From Chloroflexaceae bacterium (lineage in GTDB: Bacteria > Chloroflexota > Chloroflexia > Chloroflexales > Chloroflexaceae), in NCBI GenBank assembly GCA_028282325.1, contig JANQID010000032.1, positions 1 through 49,843 of the forward strand: a DNA stretch of 49,843 nt, read 5' to 3'. The position numbers and the translations under genes were made by a program. The notes beneath the pieces were generated by a model. The model searched no databases. It was not told the DNA's origin and worked only from the letters and a program-made list of their open reading frames with translations. Within the stretch, counting starts at the first letter, position 1. Every line of letters starts with the position of its first letter. This document shows positions 4,200-41,789 of this stretch, piece by piece.

Positions 4200-5075
4200 T
4201 CACCGCGCCCAATCGAGATTGCGGCCAATCAACAATTCCGTCATTGCGGCATGATGCGAACTCTTCATCGTCACGGGCTGGATGTCGAAGCTGTAGCGTC
4301 GGGCAAGTCGGCGCAACTCCTCAGCATCGTCATACGTCATCAGAAAATCGCCTTCAAGTGTGTCGACGATCTGGAAAAGCTCTTCGTGGTCAAGTTCTGA
4401 ATGCGTATAGAGACGGCTGCCGGCGCGCTTGCCGGAGGCCGTATAGGGCGGATCGATGAAAAACGTTGTATCGGGACGATGCGCGTTTTGACGTAAGATG
4501 TCCAACCCATCACCGGCTATAAACGTTATCCGCTCGCGGATGGCGCTAATATTCAAGATACGCTGCTTGAGCGTCTGCGGATACCAGCGCGATGACAACC
4601 CCTTGCCATTCTCGCCGTGCTTGACCTTGCCGGCTCCGGGCGCAAGAATGCCGCCGCGATTCACGCGGTTTTTCAGGATAGTCTGAAATGCCTGTTCTTG
4701 CACGGTGAACGGTCGGGCAGCCAGGACTGCGGCGACTGAGTCTGCCGTGAGATCAAAGGCCGCGATACGTTCAGCGAGCCACGGACCATAACCATTGATA
4801 ATCGTCTGCCAGACTGCTGCTACCTGCTCATCGATCTCCACCATCGTGACATGCTCTGCCAGCCGCTCAAACGCAACTGTCAAGCTCACAATGCCCCCGC
4901 CGGCGAACGGTTCGATGAACTCAGCCGGCGGCGCCGGTCGGCTGGCAAGCCAGCTACGGATACGCGGAACTAACCACGTCTTCCCGCCGGGATAGCGGAA
5001 CGGGCTGCGCTGCGGCGCCATCGCCACATTCACAATCGGGCCGGGGTGCGGTTCATCGAAAAATGAGAGCTGCAT
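4200..5075 (-). CDS. D12-class DNA N6-adenine methyltransferase
   Basis: The protein has 291 residues. RYPGGK near residue 28 starts the AdoMet site and EPFAGGG near 57 is the binding loop. DPPY near 206 is the catalytic motif of Dam-type N6-adenine methyltransferases. The gene begins five bases after the stop of the NotI-family endonuclease, so the two form one operon transcribed leftward and very likely a type II restriction-modification system, with this enzyme protecting the host site. The methylated base is expected to be adenine, so the target should contain an A. Confidence 0.92.
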   Translation of the reverse strand: MQLSFFDEPHPGPIVNVAMAPQRSPFRYPGGKTWLVPRIRSWLASRPAPPAEFIEPFAGGGIVSLTVAFERLAEHVTMVEIDEQVAAVWQTIINGYGPWLAERIAAFDLTADSVAAVLAARPFTVQEQAFQTILKNRVNRGGILAPGAGKVKHGENGKGLSSRWYPQTLKQRILNISAIRERITFIAGDGLDILRQNAHRPDTTFFIDPPYTASGKRAGSRLYTHSELDHEELFQIVDTLEGDFLMTYDDAEELRRLARRYSFDIQPVTMKSSHHAAMTELLIGRNLDWAR

Positions 5076-5080
5076 AGCGA

Positions 5081-5989
5081 CTATTCCTCTGACGCAACAT
5101 CAGGATTGAAAATATCGAGGATCGTAGATGTATCTGGCGGGATGCTTGCGCTGCTCTGCTTCTCATCCAGTTTGCGTTGTATGAGCTTGCGAAAGTCGGC
5201 TTCCGAGCCAGCCTCAGTCGTAGTGATTTGCTGCAACGCGGGTGTGAACTGGGTGTAGAGCGTTTGTTCCAGGACGAGTTGATAGCGGTTTACGCGAATA
5301 TCATATCGGAGATCGTAAACGAACCAGGCCACATCGGCTTGATCTGCTACGACCTGGGGTAATTTAGGGAGTGTAGCCAGGAATCCGCTATCAATCGCAA
5401 CCGCAATTTTCTTTCCCCACGAATGGAGAATGCCGCCTTTGTAAATCAATTGAGGGGCTAACCGTTTGCGCGATGAAGAGAGATAATCGGCATGCGGATA
5501 GTTGCGCTGATTGGACCAATCCATAGGTATGCGATTAGCAGGATCTTCCATATAGAATGCAAATGGATTGCGGATATTGCCCGAGATATAAACTGCCTGC
5601 ACTTCCAAGGTGCCAAAATCGATTATCTGACCTTGTTCGTCATATGCTACGAGAACTACATCGATATTACCGGCTGGCTTACCATTTCGATCATTGAGAC
5701 GTATCTCAGTCAGAGAAGTCCAGGCTGTACCGGAAGGAAAGAAGAAGGCGGCGGCATCTGTTGTAATACGCCAATCCTGACGAAAGCGGATTGGACATGT
5801 AATCGCCGTGTGGTCGCGCTCATAAATGCTGCAGACGCCCAGAGGATCGTTCGCTTTGTCCTTCGTGCATGACGGCACTCGATTATTGAAAGGACAGAGG
5901 CGATGCCGACGATGCCGCTCCGCCTCGCTGGAAAAGTCATCAATGCAGAAGCCAAAGACTTCAGCCATCGGCTGGTTCCCCTCGCTCAT
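5081..5989 (-). CDS. NotI-family type II restriction endonuclease
   Basis: The start at ATG 5989 follows a GGAGAGAAGG ribosome binding site and gives 302 residues. VFGFCIDDF near residue 11 and LCPFNN near 31 are typical of NotI-family enzymes. Cys32, Cys41, Cys53 and Cys65 could form the structural metal site. The nuclease core reads NIDVVLV (Asp110), then GTLEVQAVYISG (Glu129, Gln131), matching the NotI D...ExQ active site. The adjacent gene is an adenine methyltransferase, unlike what the GC-only NotI site (GCGGCCGC) would need. The specificity probably differs from NotI. Confidence 0.85.
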   Translation of the reverse strand: MSEGNQPMAEVFGFCIDDFSSEAERHRRHRLCPFNNRVPSCTKDKANDPLGVCSIYERDHTAITCPIRFRQDWRITTDAAAFFFPSGTAWTSLTEIRLNDRNGKPAGNIDVVLVAYDEQGQIIDFGTLEVQAVYISGNIRNPFAFYMEDPANRIPMDWSNQRNYPHADYLSSSRKRLAPQLIYKGGILHSWGKKIAVAIDSGFLATLPKLPQVVADQADVAWFVYDLRYDIRVNRYQLVLEQTLYTQFTPALQQITTTEAGSEADFRKLIQRKLDEKQSSASIPPDTSTILDIFNPDVASEE

Positions 5990-6150
5990 ATATCGACCTT
6001 CTCTCCGCGTGCATATGCAATATGCATACTCTAGCACAAATGCGCCAGTGCTACAAACTACGCGGAAGATATATTCATTATACCCTATTTCGTGTAGATT
6101 CCGAGGGGTGATCGACAGCCAGTTTTGGCAACGCCCAATCGCCTGCCCGA

Positions 6151-32724: not shown

Positions 32725-32841
32725 ATGCGCCTCGTTTTTGTCGCCGCGAATTTCGTTCGCCCGCCGCTCGCCGCTGTCGCCGTGAAGTTGTACATATGCG
32801 CTGGCCACGCCTCGCACGGTCGGGGAGGATGGCACGTATGA
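32725..32841 (+). CDS. Small leader ORF overlapping the mcr start
   Basis: A 38-codon frame starts at ATG 32725 after AGGAG and stops at TGA 32839-32841, overlapping the mcr ATG as ATGA. It begins MRLVFVAANFVRPPLAAV and has one hydrophobic stretch. The good ribosome site and the overlap suggest translational coupling to mcr. No family is recognised. Confidence 0.4.
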   Translation: MRLVFVAANFVRPPLAAVAVKLYICAGHASHGRGGWHV

Positions 32842-35800
32842 AGCAGGAAGCGGACGGGACGACCAGGCAGGTCGCCCCGCAGAGACGGCTGGACGGCAAG
32901 GTTGCGCTGGTCTATGGCGAGGACGCTGAAATCGGCGCAGAACTGGCGCGCCGGTATCTGGCTGAAGGCGCAACCGTCGCTTTGGTCGGGCGCAATGTGC
33001 CGGCGGTGCAAGCACGCCTGCGCAATCTGGACGGCGCGCTGCTGCAAAGCGTGTCGCTCCAGGATGCGTCGGTGGAAACGCTCCGCGCCGCCGTCGCCGC
33101 GGTGATTGCCCGCCACGGGCGCATCGATGCGCTGGTCATTGCCGTCGACGCCGATCGGCAGCGATTGGATGCGCCACCCGCCGCCGAGCTTGCGTGGATC
33201 CAGGATTGCGTCGCGGCGGTTATGGGCGTAGCCTGGAACCTGGCGCGCGTCGTTATTCCACAACTGGCGCACGCTGCCTGCATCATCGTTGCGCTTCCCG
33301 CACTCCAAACCACCGCTGCCGATCCGCCGCTGCCGTACGTGGCCGCCCGGGCTGCTCTCGTGCGTCTGGTCGCCGGATTAGCGCACGAGGCGGGGGCGCA
33401 GGGCATCCGTATGAATATGATCCAGGCCGCGCCTGCGGCGTCACCCAGCGCCGTTGCGCGGCTGGCCGTTTTTTTGGCCGGCGATGAGGCGCGCGCCTTG
33501 CATGGCCAGACGCTCGACCTGGGAGGCGCCCAACCGCCCGACGTGAAGCGGGCGACGCTGACCTCGCGGCCCGGGTTGCGCGCCGTGGACGCCGCCGGGC
33601 AGGTGATTTTGATCTGCGCCGGAGACCAGATCGAGGCGGCGTTAGCGCTGGCCGGGGTATTGCGTTCATGCGGAGCCGAGGTCGCGCTGGGGTTCCGCAG
33701 CCGCGCCCTGATCGCCCAGGTCGAAAAAGTGCTGGAGGCGAGCCGACGGTTGCAGGGGGCGGCATATCGCCCGCCCTGGTTGTTCTATCTCGATCCGCTC
33801 GATCCAGATAGCGTCGATAAAACGCTAGCTCGTATCGAGAGCTATCTGCAAGCGCCCGATGCGGCGATCATCCTGCCCGCCCGGCAGACATATGCCGACG
33901 CCCCCGCGCTGATCGATGCCGCCGACGCAACGGTTGAGGCGCTGCTGACGCACGAGTTGGCCGGCGTGATCGGGCTGGCGCTTCAGCTCACCCGGTTCTG
34001 GTCGTCGCGCCGCGCCGAGCTTCCCCCGCCGCGGGTCATCTTCCTGAGCAATGACGATGACGGACGGGGCAACGTGTATGCCGACGTTCTGCGCGCGAGC
34101 GTCGAGTGCCTGGCGTATCGATGGCGCACGCCGACGAACGCCGATGAAACGGCGATCTGGGCCAATCAGATCGTGCGCTATGTAAATACGGAGGCTGAAG
34201 GCCTCGACTTCGCCTGCGCCTGGGTCGCCAAGTTGCTCACCGGCGACCGCGCGATTGACGAGATCGGCCTGTATCTGCCCGAACGCATCACCGAGACGGC
34301 CGGCGCGCAACGACCGTCGTTTGGCTGGGCCGAGGGGCTGATCGGGTTGCACCTGGGCAAGGCGGCGGTGATCACGGGCGGCAGCGCGGGAATCGGCGGA
34401 CAGATCGGGCGGCTGCTCGCGCTGAGCGGCGCGCGGGTGATGCTGGCGGCGCGGCGCGCGGGATTGCTGGAACACACCCGCGAGCGCATCGTCGCCGATC
34501 TGGAGGAGGTCGGATATGCTAACGCCGCGGCGCGGGTGGCGATAACCGCCGACTGCGATGTCGCCGAGGAGGCCAACCTCGTGCGGCTGGCGGAGCGCAC
34601 GATGAAGATGTTTGGGCGCGTTGACTATCTGATCAACAACGCGGGCATCACCGGCGCGGAGGAAATGGTGATCGACCTGCCGCTCGACATCTGGCGGCAT
34701 ACGTTGCAGGCCAATCTGATCAGCAACTATTCGCTGATTCGCAAAATGGCGCCGCTTATGCAGGCGCAGAACACCGGCGCGATCCTCAACGTGTCCTCGT
34801 ATTTCGGCGGCGAGAAGTACATCGCTGTGCCCTACCCCAATCGCGCCGACTATGCCGTGAGCAAAGCCGGACAGCGCGCTTTGTCCGAAGAGTTGGCGCA
34901 CTTTTTCGGCCCCGCGATCCAGATCAATACCATCGCGCCGGGCCCGGTGGATGGCAATCGTCTCCGCGGCACAGATGAAGAGCCGGGATTGTATAAACGC
35001 CGCGCGGCGATCATCCTGGAGAACAAGCGCTTGAGCCGGGTGTACGCGGCGCTGATCGAAGCGCACAATGTCTCAAGACAGCCGATTGCGGCGCTGTTGG
35101 ATCTGTTGCAGCGCAATGACGTGTCGGCGTTGGTCGCGCCCCAGGCCACAGCGATCCCCGAACCGCTGCGCCGCCTGGCGAGCGCGATCTGGGAGCAGAG
35201 CGATCCGTTTGGCTCGTCGCAGGCATACCTGATGAACGAGCGCATCGCGCACAAGCTGTTCGTGCGGCTGCGCTCGGGCCGGTATCTCGGCACAACCGAC
35301 GCCGAGCCGCGGCTAAACGCGATACCGCCGGAGCCGTTTTTTACGTCGGCGCAAATTGATCGCGAGGCCCAGCATGTGCGCGATCGGGTTCTGCAAATGC
35401 TTTCTACGCAGCAGATGCCAAGCGACTTCGATGTGGCGCTCGCGACCGCGCACTACCTGGCCGATCGCAACATCAGCGGCGAGACGTTCCATCCTTCGGG
35501 CGGATTGAAGCTGGATCGCGTCGCCACCGACAGCGATCTGTTTGGCCAGGCCAGCCAGGAACAGTTGGCGGGACTGCGCGATAGCACGGTCTATCTGATC
35601 GGCGAAGCCCGGCCCGACTATCTGCTGGCGTTGGCGCGCGCCTATCTCGATGATTATCATGCCCGCCAGGTCGTTTGTCTGACCGAAAGCGCTGCAGCAG
35701 CCGAACGCCTGCGCGCCGCCTTGCCGGCGCATGCTGCCACCGGTCGTTGGTATACGCTTGCCGGCGGCGACGACATCGAGGGTATGCTCGAAACAGCCTG

Positions 35801-36311
35801 CACCCGGTTCGGCGTGCCCGGCCCGGTCGTCTGCGCACCGTTTCGCGCGTTGCCGGATCGCCGTCTCATCGGCGACGCCGACGGCAATTGGGACAATGTG
35901 CTGAGCGAAGTCGAGTTTGCCGATCTGGTTGAGCAGCAGGTGACGCATCATTTTCGCGTCGCGCGCAAGATCTCGCTGCTGGACGGCGTGTGCTTGGCGC
36001 TGGTGACGCCGGCGACGAACGCGCGATCAACGCCGGAGGAGTTCGCGCTGGCCAGCATCGTGCGCACAATGCTCAGCGCACTGACGGTCACGCTGGGCGT
36101 GGAAAACGAGCGCGTCATCCATCGCGTGCCGGTGAGCCAGATCAACCTGACGCGCCGTAATCGCCACGATGCACCGCGCACACCAGCGGAAGAGCGAGAG
36201 GCGCTCGCACGATTCATCGACGCTGTGATGCTGGTAACTGCGCCGTGGCCGGAGCGCGACCGTAGCCGGTATCTGTCCGACGCCTGCCAGGGCCGTTCGC
36301 TCACGATTTAG
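32838..36311 (+). CDS. mcr: Malonyl-CoA reductase, with degenerate N-terminal SDR
   Basis: The protein has 1157 residues from ATG 32838, nine bases after GGGGAGG. The layout is that of Chloroflexus malonyl-CoA reductase: four SDR-fold units in two halves. The C-terminal half is intact: VITGGSAGIGGQIGRL near residue 512, LINNAGITGAEEM, ILNVSSYFGGEK (Ser653/654) and ADYAVSKAGQ (Tyr672, Lys676). That half reduces malonyl-CoA to malonate semialdehyde. The N-terminal half should reduce the semialdehyde to 3-hydroxypropionate, but has YGEDAEIG for TGGxGNIG, IAVD for NNAG, Leu153 for Ser and Arg171 for Lys (Tyr167 kept). It has also lost ~50 residues. The structural units between are conserved. The stop codon touches a repeat. 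Confidence 0.93.
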   Translation: MKQEADGTTRQVAPQRRLDGKVALVYGEDAEIGAELARRYLAEGATVALVGRNVPAVQARLRNLDGALLQSVSLQDASVETLRAAVAAVIARHGRIDALVIAVDADRQRLDAPPAAELAWIQDCVAAVMGVAWNLARVVIPQLAHAACIIVALPALQTTAADPPLPYVAARAALVRLVAGLAHEAGAQGIRMNMIQAAPAASPSAVARLAVFLAGDEARALHGQTLDLGGAQPPDVKRATLTSRPGLRAVDAAGQVILICAGDQIEAALALAGVLRSCGAEVALGFRSRALIAQVEKVLEASRRLQGAAYRPPWLFYLDPLDPDSVDKTLARIESYLQAPDAAIILPARQTYADAPALIDAADATVEALLTHELAGVIGLALQLTRFWSSRRAELPPPRVIFLSNDDDGRGNVYADVLRASVECLAYRWRTPTNADETAIWANQIVRYVNTEAEGLDFACAWVAKLLTGDRAIDEIGLYLPERITETAGAQRPSFGWAEGLIGLHLGKAAVITGGSAGIGGQIGRLLALSGARVMLAARRAGLLEHTRERIVADLEEVGYANAAARVAITADCDVAEEANLVRLAERTMKMFGRVDYLINNAGITGAEEMVIDLPLDIWRHTLQANLISNYSLIRKMAPLMQAQNTGAILNVSSYFGGEKYIAVPYPNRADYAVSKAGQRALSEELAHFFGPAIQINTIAPGPVDGNRLRGTDEEPGLYKRRAAIILENKRLSRVYAALIEAHNVSRQPIAALLDLLQRNDVSALVAPQATAIPEPLRRLASAIWEQSDPFGSSQAYLMNERIAHKLFVRLRSGRYLGTTDAEPRLNAIPPEPFFTSAQIDREAQHVRDRVLQMLSTQQMPSDFDVALATAHYLADRNISGETFHPSGGLKLDRVATDSDLFGQASQEQLAGLRDSTVYLIGEARPDYLLALARAYLDDYHARQVVCLTESAAAAERLRAALPAHAATGRWYTLAGGDDIEGMLETACTRFGVPGPVVCAPFRALPDRRLIGDADGNWDNVLSEVEFADLVEQQVTHHFRVARKISLLDGVCLALVTPATNARSTPEEFALASIVRTMLSALTVTLGVENERVIHRVPVSQINLTRRNRHDAPRTPAEEREALARFIDAVMLVTAPWPERDRSRYLSDACQGRSLTI

Positions 36312-40723: not shown

Positions 40724-40793
40724 AACCGGCGTCCCTGTCATTGAATCCGGAAAGCGGCGCCGGCATTATGCCAGCATCGCTATGGGAGGAAGC

Positions 40794-41789
40794 ATGCGCC
40801 TACGTCAACTTGGGGCGATGAATCTATCGGTATCGCCTATCGGCATTGGCCTGGCCGCGCTGGGGCGACCGGGCTACATCAATCTGGGCCATGCCGATGA
40901 TCTTGAGCGCATCTACGATGTGGCGGCGATGGAAGCGCGCGCCCATCGCGTTCTTGATGCAGCCTATCAGGGCGGCGTGCGCTATTTCGATGCGGCTCGT
41001 TCGTATGGACGGGGCGAGGCGTTCCTGGGGAGCTGGCTCGCCTCACGCGGGCTGGCTCCGGGAGATGTGACGGTCGGCTCGAAGTGGGGCTACGTCTACA
41101 CCGCCGACTGGCAAGTGACTGCGGAACTCCACGAAGTCAAAGAGCACTCGCTGGAGGTGCTGCAACGCCAATGGGGCGAAAGTCAGGCGCTGCTCGGCGC
41201 GCACCTCGATCTGTACCAGATTCACTCGGCGACGCTGGAGAGCGGGGTGTTAACGAACACGGCAGTGCTCGATGAGTTGGCGCGATTGAAATCGACCGGC
41301 GTTGCCATCGGCCTGACCGTGAGCGGTCCGCGCCAGGCCGCGGTCATCGAGCAGGCGCTGGAAACGCGCATCGACGGCGAGCCGCTGTTTGCGTGCGTGC
41401 AGGCGACGTGGAACCTGCTGGAGCGCTCGGCGGGCGTGGCGATGGCGCGGGCGCATGCCGCCGGGATGGGCGTGATCGTCAAGGAAGTGCTGGCCAACGG
41501 ATGCCTGACCGAGCGCAACGCCGCGCCGGATTTCGCCGATAAGATGGCGGCGCTGCATGCGGAAGCAGCGCGGCTGGAAACCACGATCGACGGTCTGGCG
41601 CTTGCCGGAGTTCTGGCTCAACCGTGGGCGAGCGTCGTCTTGAGCGGCGCAGCCCGCATCGAGCACCTGGTGTCGAACCTGCAAGCGCTCGATGTGGCGT
41701 GGGACGCCGAAGCTGATGCGAAGTTGGCGCATCTGGCAGAATCGGCGGAAGCCTATTGGTCGCGACGCAGCGACCTGCGCTGGAATTAA
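40794..41789 (+). CDS. Aldo/keto reductase
   Basis: ATG 40794 follows GGGAGGAAGC and gives 331 residues. The TIM-barrel tetrad is visible: Asp and Tyr in YFDAARSYGRG, Lys in VGSKWGY and His in LYQIHSATLES. NAD(P)H would be bound near the C-terminal LSGAARIEHLVSNL region. The family reduces aldehydes and ketones; the substrate here is unknown. It could in principle serve small aldehydes, but nothing in the sequence links it to a particular one. Confidence 0.92.
   Translation: MRLRQLGAMNLSVSPIGIGLAALGRPGYINLGHADDLERIYDVAAMEARAHRVLDAAYQGGVRYFDAARSYGRGEAFLGSWLASRGLAPGDVTVGSKWGYVYTADWQVTAELHEVKEHSLEVLQRQWGESQALLGAHLDLYQIHSATLESGVLTNTAVLDELARLKSTGVAIGLTVSGPRQAAVIEQALETRIDGEPLFACVQATWNLLERSAGVAMARAHAAGMGVIVKEVLANGCLTERNAAPDFADKMAALHAEAARLETTIDGLALAGVLAQPWASVVLSGAARIEHLVSNLQALDVAWDAEADAKLAHLAESAEAYWSRRSDLRWN

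Follow-up and report, generated by a model that had tools for sequence, protein, structure and literature searches.

The closest described relatives of the enzyme reported here are the malonyl-CoA reductases (MCRs) of Chloroflexus aurantiacus (8hjw; N-terminal half, MCR-N, 8aew; C-terminal half, MCR-C, 8a30/8i70) and Roseiflexus castenholzii (RfxMCR; 8hi4, 8hi5, and 8hi6). RfxMCR has a working T165-Y178-K182 triad and a moving alpha10 helix (PMC10470521). In C. aurantiacus, the MCR-N mutations G16R and Y171G/K175G were found to abolish the formation of 3-hydroxypropionate (3-HP) and to cause malonate semialdehyde to accumulate, and MCR-C on its own forms malonate semialdehyde at a kcat/Km exceeding that of the full enzyme (PMC3779250). 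Here, we analyzed the window, i.e., the whole 49,843-nt contig JANQID010000032.1 of a Chloroflexaceae bacterium (GCA_028282325.1), and its mcr gene (32838–36311, + strand). Judged from its sequence, the product is a naturally occurring MCR, predicted to be monofunctional, in which one reductase domain is a pseudoenzyme; it represents a new form of a known enzyme, and we regard the finding as real and specific.

The first reductase unit has lost its catalytic site

The mcr open reading frame (ORF) encodes 1157 amino acids (aa) with zero internal stops, and GGAGG lies 9 nt upstream of its ATG at 32838. The protein is collinear from end to end with the C. aurantiacus (8hjw) and R. castenholzii (8hi4) enzymes in two matched stretches, showing four tandem short-chain dehydrogenase/reductase (SDR) units in a single chain; Pfam detected SDR-type domains exclusively, and Foldseek/VIA returned matches to MCR structures. 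The host enzyme shares with C. aurantiacus MCR this architecture and the mapped catalytic residues of the C-terminal half (C-half). However, its first unit (SDR1; residues 16–228, positions 32883–33521), a degenerate version of the 3-HP-forming reductase domain, lacks the NADP motif, NNAG, the catalytic Thr and Lys, the malonate semialdehyde ligands, and the alpha10 lid and is predicted to yield no 3-HP.

Residue roles were taken from RfxMCR (PMC10470521) and transferred by aligning 37 MCRs from Chloroflexales, with reference residues given in RfxMCR numbering. This revealed that, of the seven SDR1 residues mapped as catalytic or as contacting substrate or cofactor, five (T165, Y172, R175, K182, and D70) are lost. 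Specifically, the catalytic Thr165 is replaced by Pro154 and the adjacent Ser164 by Leu153, while the malonate semialdehyde ligands Tyr172 and Arg175 are replaced by Ala161 and Pro164, respectively. In the YxxxK motif, Tyr178 is kept (Tyr167) and Lys182 is replaced by Arg171, leaving Y167 as the sole remnant of a triad that now reads Pro154-Tyr167-Arg171 (former site at 33294–33350); Arg41 is kept (Arg52), and the NADP ligand Asp70 has become Gln75. The TGxxxGxG-type glycine motif, TGGAGNIG in relatives, reads YGEDAEIG (residues 26–33; 32913–32936), and the NNAG region reads IAVD (residues 101–104), with two residues deleted. Finally, about 46 to 48 residues are missing after residue 202 (junction at about residues 202–203; 33441–33446), a deletion that removes the alpha10 active-site lid (RfxMCR 213–228) and its flanks.

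The mapped catalytic and ligand positions of SDR1 are invariant across the 34 other MCRs compared, except for Arg41, which is Leu in some, and the lesions are absent from all 35 aligned relatives, each of those covering SDR1 having intact motifs. The original prediction had read the glycine motif, the NNAG region, the Ser-to-Leu153 and Lys-to-Arg171 replacements, and a loss of about 50 residues past the active site from this sequence alone; the alignment with Chloroflexus and Roseiflexus MCRs and closer relatives agrees with each of these readings, the loss amounting to about 46 aligned residues past residue 202, and the motifs are not simply shifted. A frameshift was also rejected as an account of the odd region, which the intact SDR1 of three relatives matches in one reading frame only.

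The C-half is conserved and the degenerate unit retains its core

Next, we compared conservation among the domains, using terminal branch lengths from a tree built without SDR1 and positions with at least 97% conservation among relatives (hereafter, invariants). The terminal branch of the host measured 2.5 substitutions per site in SDR1, compared to 0.70 in SDR2 (structural unit; residues 229–485, 33522–34292), 0.37 in SDR3 (residues 500–730, including the start of the extra domain [ED]; 34335–35027), and 0.87 in the remainder of ED plus SDR4 (residues 731–1157; 35028–36308). As a share of tree length, this corresponds to 0.275 for SDR1 versus 0.07 to 0.11 elsewhere. Invariants were retained at 34 of 82 positions in SDR1, 35 of 43 in SDR2, 117 of 128 in SDR3, and 112 of 146 in ED plus SDR4 (SDR1 versus SDR3, Fisher P of about 4e-15).

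In SDR3, the unit that by alignment and residue mapping would convert malonyl-CoA to malonate semialdehyde, together with ED and SDR4, all 12 mapped residues are kept: the NADP ligands Ser593, Arg616, and Asp651 as well as Ser731, Tyr743, Arg746, Tyr749, Lys753, Arg785, Leu795, Arg799, and Arg1164. In the host's own numbering, the kept SDR3 residues include S654, Y666, R669, Y672, K676, R708, L718, and R722, and the CoA-binding R1092 is retained in the ED-SDR4 part. The C-half is ~57% identical to that of C. aurantiacus MCR. These data bear out the earlier claims that the second catalytic SDR is intact and that the structural units are conserved, the latter also by the normal rate of SDR2 and by the predicted fold of the N-terminal half (N-half).

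Despite its divergence, SDR1 retains a core-hydrophobic residue at 43 of 50 such sites (86%), or 49 of 50 if Ala and Tyr are counted. When the codons of a relative were mutated without constraint down to equal identity, retention was 59 ± 7% (maximum of 78% in 200 runs), although all divergence counts as unconstrained in this simulation, and some of the retained core therefore reflects ancestral constraint. Since the confidence of the full-length AlphaFold model was modest (pLDDT 69, pTM 0.48), we modeled the N-half on its own (pLDDT 76, pTM 0.79); the resulting model superposes on the MCR-N crystal structure 8hi6 (Z 36.5, 2.6 Å, 451 residues). The host N-half thus resembles RfxMCR in its predicted fold and differs from it in that the triad and alpha10 helix of RfxMCR are functional. 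Because the hydrophobic core is retained and the predicted N-half superposes on MCR-N, we read SDR1 as a fold-preserving pseudoenzyme domain, retained for folding or dimerization while the C-half of the same chain continues to be required.

Malonate semialdehyde as the predicted end product

We predict that the host MCR stops at malonate semialdehyde and forms no 3-HP, because similar lesions abolish 3-HP formation in MCR-N mutants and MCR-C works alone. The C. aurantiacus mutants G16R and Y171G/K175G (PMC3779250) resemble the host in losing the glycine motif or YxxxK, but they are engineered single lesions, whereas the host carries a natural set of multiple lesions and a deletion. The product proposed in the original prediction, malonate semialdehyde rather than 3-HP, is therefore supported by analogy with these mutants. 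A comparable pairing of an inactive SDR unit with an active one occurs in BbsCD (7pcs), of which BbsC is a pseudoenzyme; however, BbsC is a separate subunit of a heterotetramer, while SDR1 of the host is one domain in a bifunctional fusion enzyme.

MCR was present in 39 of the 82 genomes of the order, and no further case of the SDR1 lesion was found in these 82 genomes, in a 400-genome sample of the phylum, or in a GTDB contig scan. Two relatives encode a standalone MCR-C without an N-half (L070, G031:C61:30894–32909, − strand, 689 aa; L069, G021:C577, 700 aa), with intact SDR3/ED catalytic residues. Both genomes also carry a longer MCR with an N-half (in G021, its start is cut or broken), and one of the two standalone genes adjoins an ORF resembling an acyl-CoA synthetase. 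These proteins resemble the host MCR in their intact malonate-semialdehyde-forming half but differ from it in that the N-half is wholly absent. Thus, malonate-semialdehyde-only MCRs seem to occur in this group by another path as well, with the N-half absent instead of decayed.

The host carries a Calvin operon and probably lacks the maker and the user of 3-HP

The host genome is a Chloroflexales draft of 4.6 Mb in 140 contigs (99.98% complete by marker genes, 1.8% contamination), phototrophic by pufLM. Mct, Mcl, Mch, Meh, SmtA, and SmtB, which make up the glyoxylate-assimilation half of the 3-HP bicycle, are present with 69 to 84% identity to C. aurantiacus. Propionyl-CoA synthase (PCS) was not found in the draft genome, the best matches being 32 to 36% identical and confined to the synthetase domain; a second search at 1e-6, in which all 44 candidates were scored, returned separate synthetase, hydratase, and reductase homologues and no PCS fragment. 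Likewise, no second MCR or MCR-N-like protein was found in the host genome. RuBisCO large subunit and phosphoribulokinase are both present, in a Calvin operon with the order rbcL-rbcS-cbbX-prk-tkt-prk-rpe, where the assignment of rbcS relies solely on its position and sequence. This operon (L146:11448–15618 on G000:C131, G000 being the host) contains two phosphoribulokinase genes with the transketolase gene between them.

Among the family genomes, both MCR and PCS occurred in 2 of 11 RuBisCO-positive versus 28 of 30 RuBisCO-negative members (Fisher P = 8e-6, uncorrected for relatedness and with one weak RuBisCO-like match scored as negative). Previous work reported the Calvin cycle without the 3-HP cycle in Oscillochloris and 3-HP genes without Calvin genes in Chloroploca, Viridilinea, and Chloranaerofilum (PMC6180586). 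The host genome looks intermediate, with no maker or consumer of 3-HP and with the glyoxylate-assimilation branch retained. Another partial 3-HP state was seen in two relatives (G033 and G034), which have PCS and RuBisCO without any MCR.

We consider it probable that MCR turned monofunctional once the lineage had changed to the Calvin cycle, forming malonate semialdehyde for another pathway and keeping SDR1 as a pseudoenzyme. The host would belong to a line of phototrophic Chloroflexales in which the Calvin cycle is now present and PCS has been lost; with SDR1 inactive as well, 3-HP would have neither a maker nor a user. SDR3-ED-SDR4 would use NADPH to reduce malonyl-CoA to free malonate semialdehyde, and SDR1, retained to support folding and dimerization, would no longer bind NADPH or close on the aldehyde. 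Malonate semialdehyde would then enter another pathway, with transamination to beta-alanine for pantothenate/CoA as the leading candidate.

Beta-alanine as a candidate use

Since PanC is present in the host genome (C14:258–1073) and neither PanD nor a pyridoxal phosphate (PLP)-type decarboxylase of PF00282 was found there, beta-alanine for CoA is the leading candidate use of malonate SEMIALDEHYDE, unproven but plausible and testable. In this specific version of our explanation, which we rate as possible rather than probable, an aminotransferase would convert malonate semialdehyde to beta-alanine, and PanC would join the latter to pantoate. To our knowledge, the route from malonyl-CoA through malonate semialdehyde to beta-alanine is known from metabolic engineering only.

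Analysis of the family revealed that 39 of 41 genomes lack PanD and that an omega-aminotransferase gene adjoins panC in 31 of 34 genomes with panC and without panD versus neither of the two with PanD (P = 0.016); one example is L149:5357–6823 (G007:C1:3008467–3009819). This distribution suggests that transamination of malonate semialdehyde is the family's source of beta-alanine and a possible replacement for PanD. Aminotransferases producing beta-alanine from malonate semialdehyde are known (PMC7142369).

Two other candidate sources were examined and rejected. In the host, panC is followed by genes resembling those for N-carbamoylputrescine amidase and agmatine deiminase (L143:201–3156, G000:C14), which replace the aminotransferase neighbor of relatives. 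The first of these, a nitrilase, was considered as a beta-ureidopropionase, but its best named matches are N-carbamoylputrescine amidases, and with the agmatine-deiminase-like gene next to it, polyamine synthesis is likelier. PF00282 proteins, which score above the cut-off in 35 of the 41 family members, were considered as aspartate decarboxylases, but that of C. aurantiacus is DOPA-decarboxylase-like. This type of protein (L185, G007:C1:3802208–3803308, − strand; 7xin, 581 bits) is common in Chloroflexaceae and absent from the host.

Several observations weigh against the beta-alanine assignment. The panC-linked omega-aminotransferase of relatives was not found in the host genome, and the host's only non-ArgD class-III aminotransferase found (C69:87085–88317) is nearest to taurine:2-oxoglutarate aminotransferase, although taurine, the substrate of that enzyme, is the sulfonate analogue of beta-alanine. 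No operon joins MCR to the pan genes, and other routes, such as uracil catabolism or uptake, could supply beta-alanine. Moreover, seven MCR-less relatives have PanC and no PanD, so MCR cannot be the only source of beta-alanine in the family, and these relatives need another source in any case. We therefore propose only tentatively that, in this Calvin-switched phototroph, the MCR of the 3-HP bicycle was recruited as a dedicated supplier of malonate semialdehyde for beta-alanine/CoA, with the second reductase as a pseudoenzyme scaffold.

Alternative explanations

The same lesions would be expected if mcr as a whole came under relaxed selection after the Calvin takeover, SDR1 having fallen first with the C-half to follow. 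Such ongoing decay agrees with the prior loss of PCS, with the frequent absence of MCR altogether from RuBisCO-bearing relatives, and with the host sequence being the least conserved also in SDR3 and ED plus SDR4 (branch shares of 0.105 and 0.110, respectively). However, the complete set of mapped SDR3/ED/SDR4 residues, the high retention of SDR3 invariants, the frame that stays open through a degenerate SDR1 with its hydrophobic core kept, and a change in SDR1 of three to four times above expectation that SDR3 does not share make decay unlikely. It is more doubtful that the SDR1 sequence is an artifact of compensating frameshifts, a chimeric contig, or mis-binning, as might be feared for a draft in 140 contigs that is a single representative without a close relative. 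Relatives align in one frame throughout with correct spacing, the coding GC pattern is unbroken across SDR1, and the changes strike catalytic sites and spare core residues. The window, being one whole contig, also agrees with the host's other contigs in its 4-mer profile (r of 0.91 to 0.96, compared to 0.57 to 0.88 for most relatives and 0.94 for the nearest, G029), which renders an artifact extremely improbable.

Two further possibilities would keep the enzyme in a known role. The original prediction had offered a separate dehydrogenase as one way for the bicycle to continue; in this genome, PCS would then lie in an assembly gap or be replaced by separate enzymes. In archaea, separate enzymes do exist for malonate semialdehyde reduction and the PCS steps, the host has the entire second half of the bicycle in highly conserved form, and its genome encodes some 20 further SDRs as well as an aldo/keto reductase (40782–41789 in the window). 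The latter, considered as a malonate semialdehyde reductase, had no solved relative at an E-value of 1e-15 and nothing supporting this role. Given the absence of PCS, the retained glyoxylate-assimilation half, and the Calvin operon, it is unlikely that a hidden reductase restores the bicycle; with neither PCS nor a fragment of it in a 99.98% complete genome, no second MCR-N-like protein, a full Calvin operon, and a mct-mch-mcl-meh branch that may serve propionate/glyoxylate assimilation without MCR and PCS, a running bicycle is improbable overall. Of the two options left by the original prediction, this one is accordingly disfavored, and the other, an enzyme serving another purpose, is preferred along with the predicted product. 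Alternatively, the C-half could act as a CoA-acylating semialdehyde dehydrogenase and oxidize malonate semialdehyde, released when beta-alanine, uracil, or 3-HP is degraded, to malonyl-CoA. Its reaction is of the CoA-acylating aldehyde dehydrogenase type and reversible in principle, and losing the 3-HP half would do no harm in this role, but the locus has no catabolic neighbor genes and the NADPH/NADP ratio usually favors reduction, making this use highly improbable. Against the conversion of MCR to a monofunctional reductase that we prefer, it must be counted that the SDR1 lesion was seen in one draft genome, the sole member of its genus among the 82 searched, and that the absence of PCS could be an assembly gap.

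Neighboring genes

The mcr gene is flanked upstream by a zinc/manganese-type ABC importer and downstream by a methyltransferase gene and a large ORF without a Pfam match, with no evident functional link to these neighbors. Elsewhere in the window, an ORF at 4200–6037 (− strand) resembles a Dam-type DNA adenine methylase (FRYPGGK motif) and lies beside a second ORF, with which it perhaps forms a restriction-modification pair.

Implications

The host provides what appears to be a snapshot of a carbon-fixation pathway being dismantled after the arrival of the Calvin cycle, with PCS gone, SDR1 dead in place, and the C-half under selection. A dead SDR1 next to a selected C-half predicts an unrecognized need for malonate semialdehyde in Chloroflexales. 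The mcr gene is, in consequence, an unsafe marker for the 3-HP bicycle, and a natural MCR predicted to form malonate semialdehyde only is available for engineering. Furthermore, the replacement of PanD across the family by an aminotransferase linked to panC may account for CoA synthesis in Chloroflexaceae.

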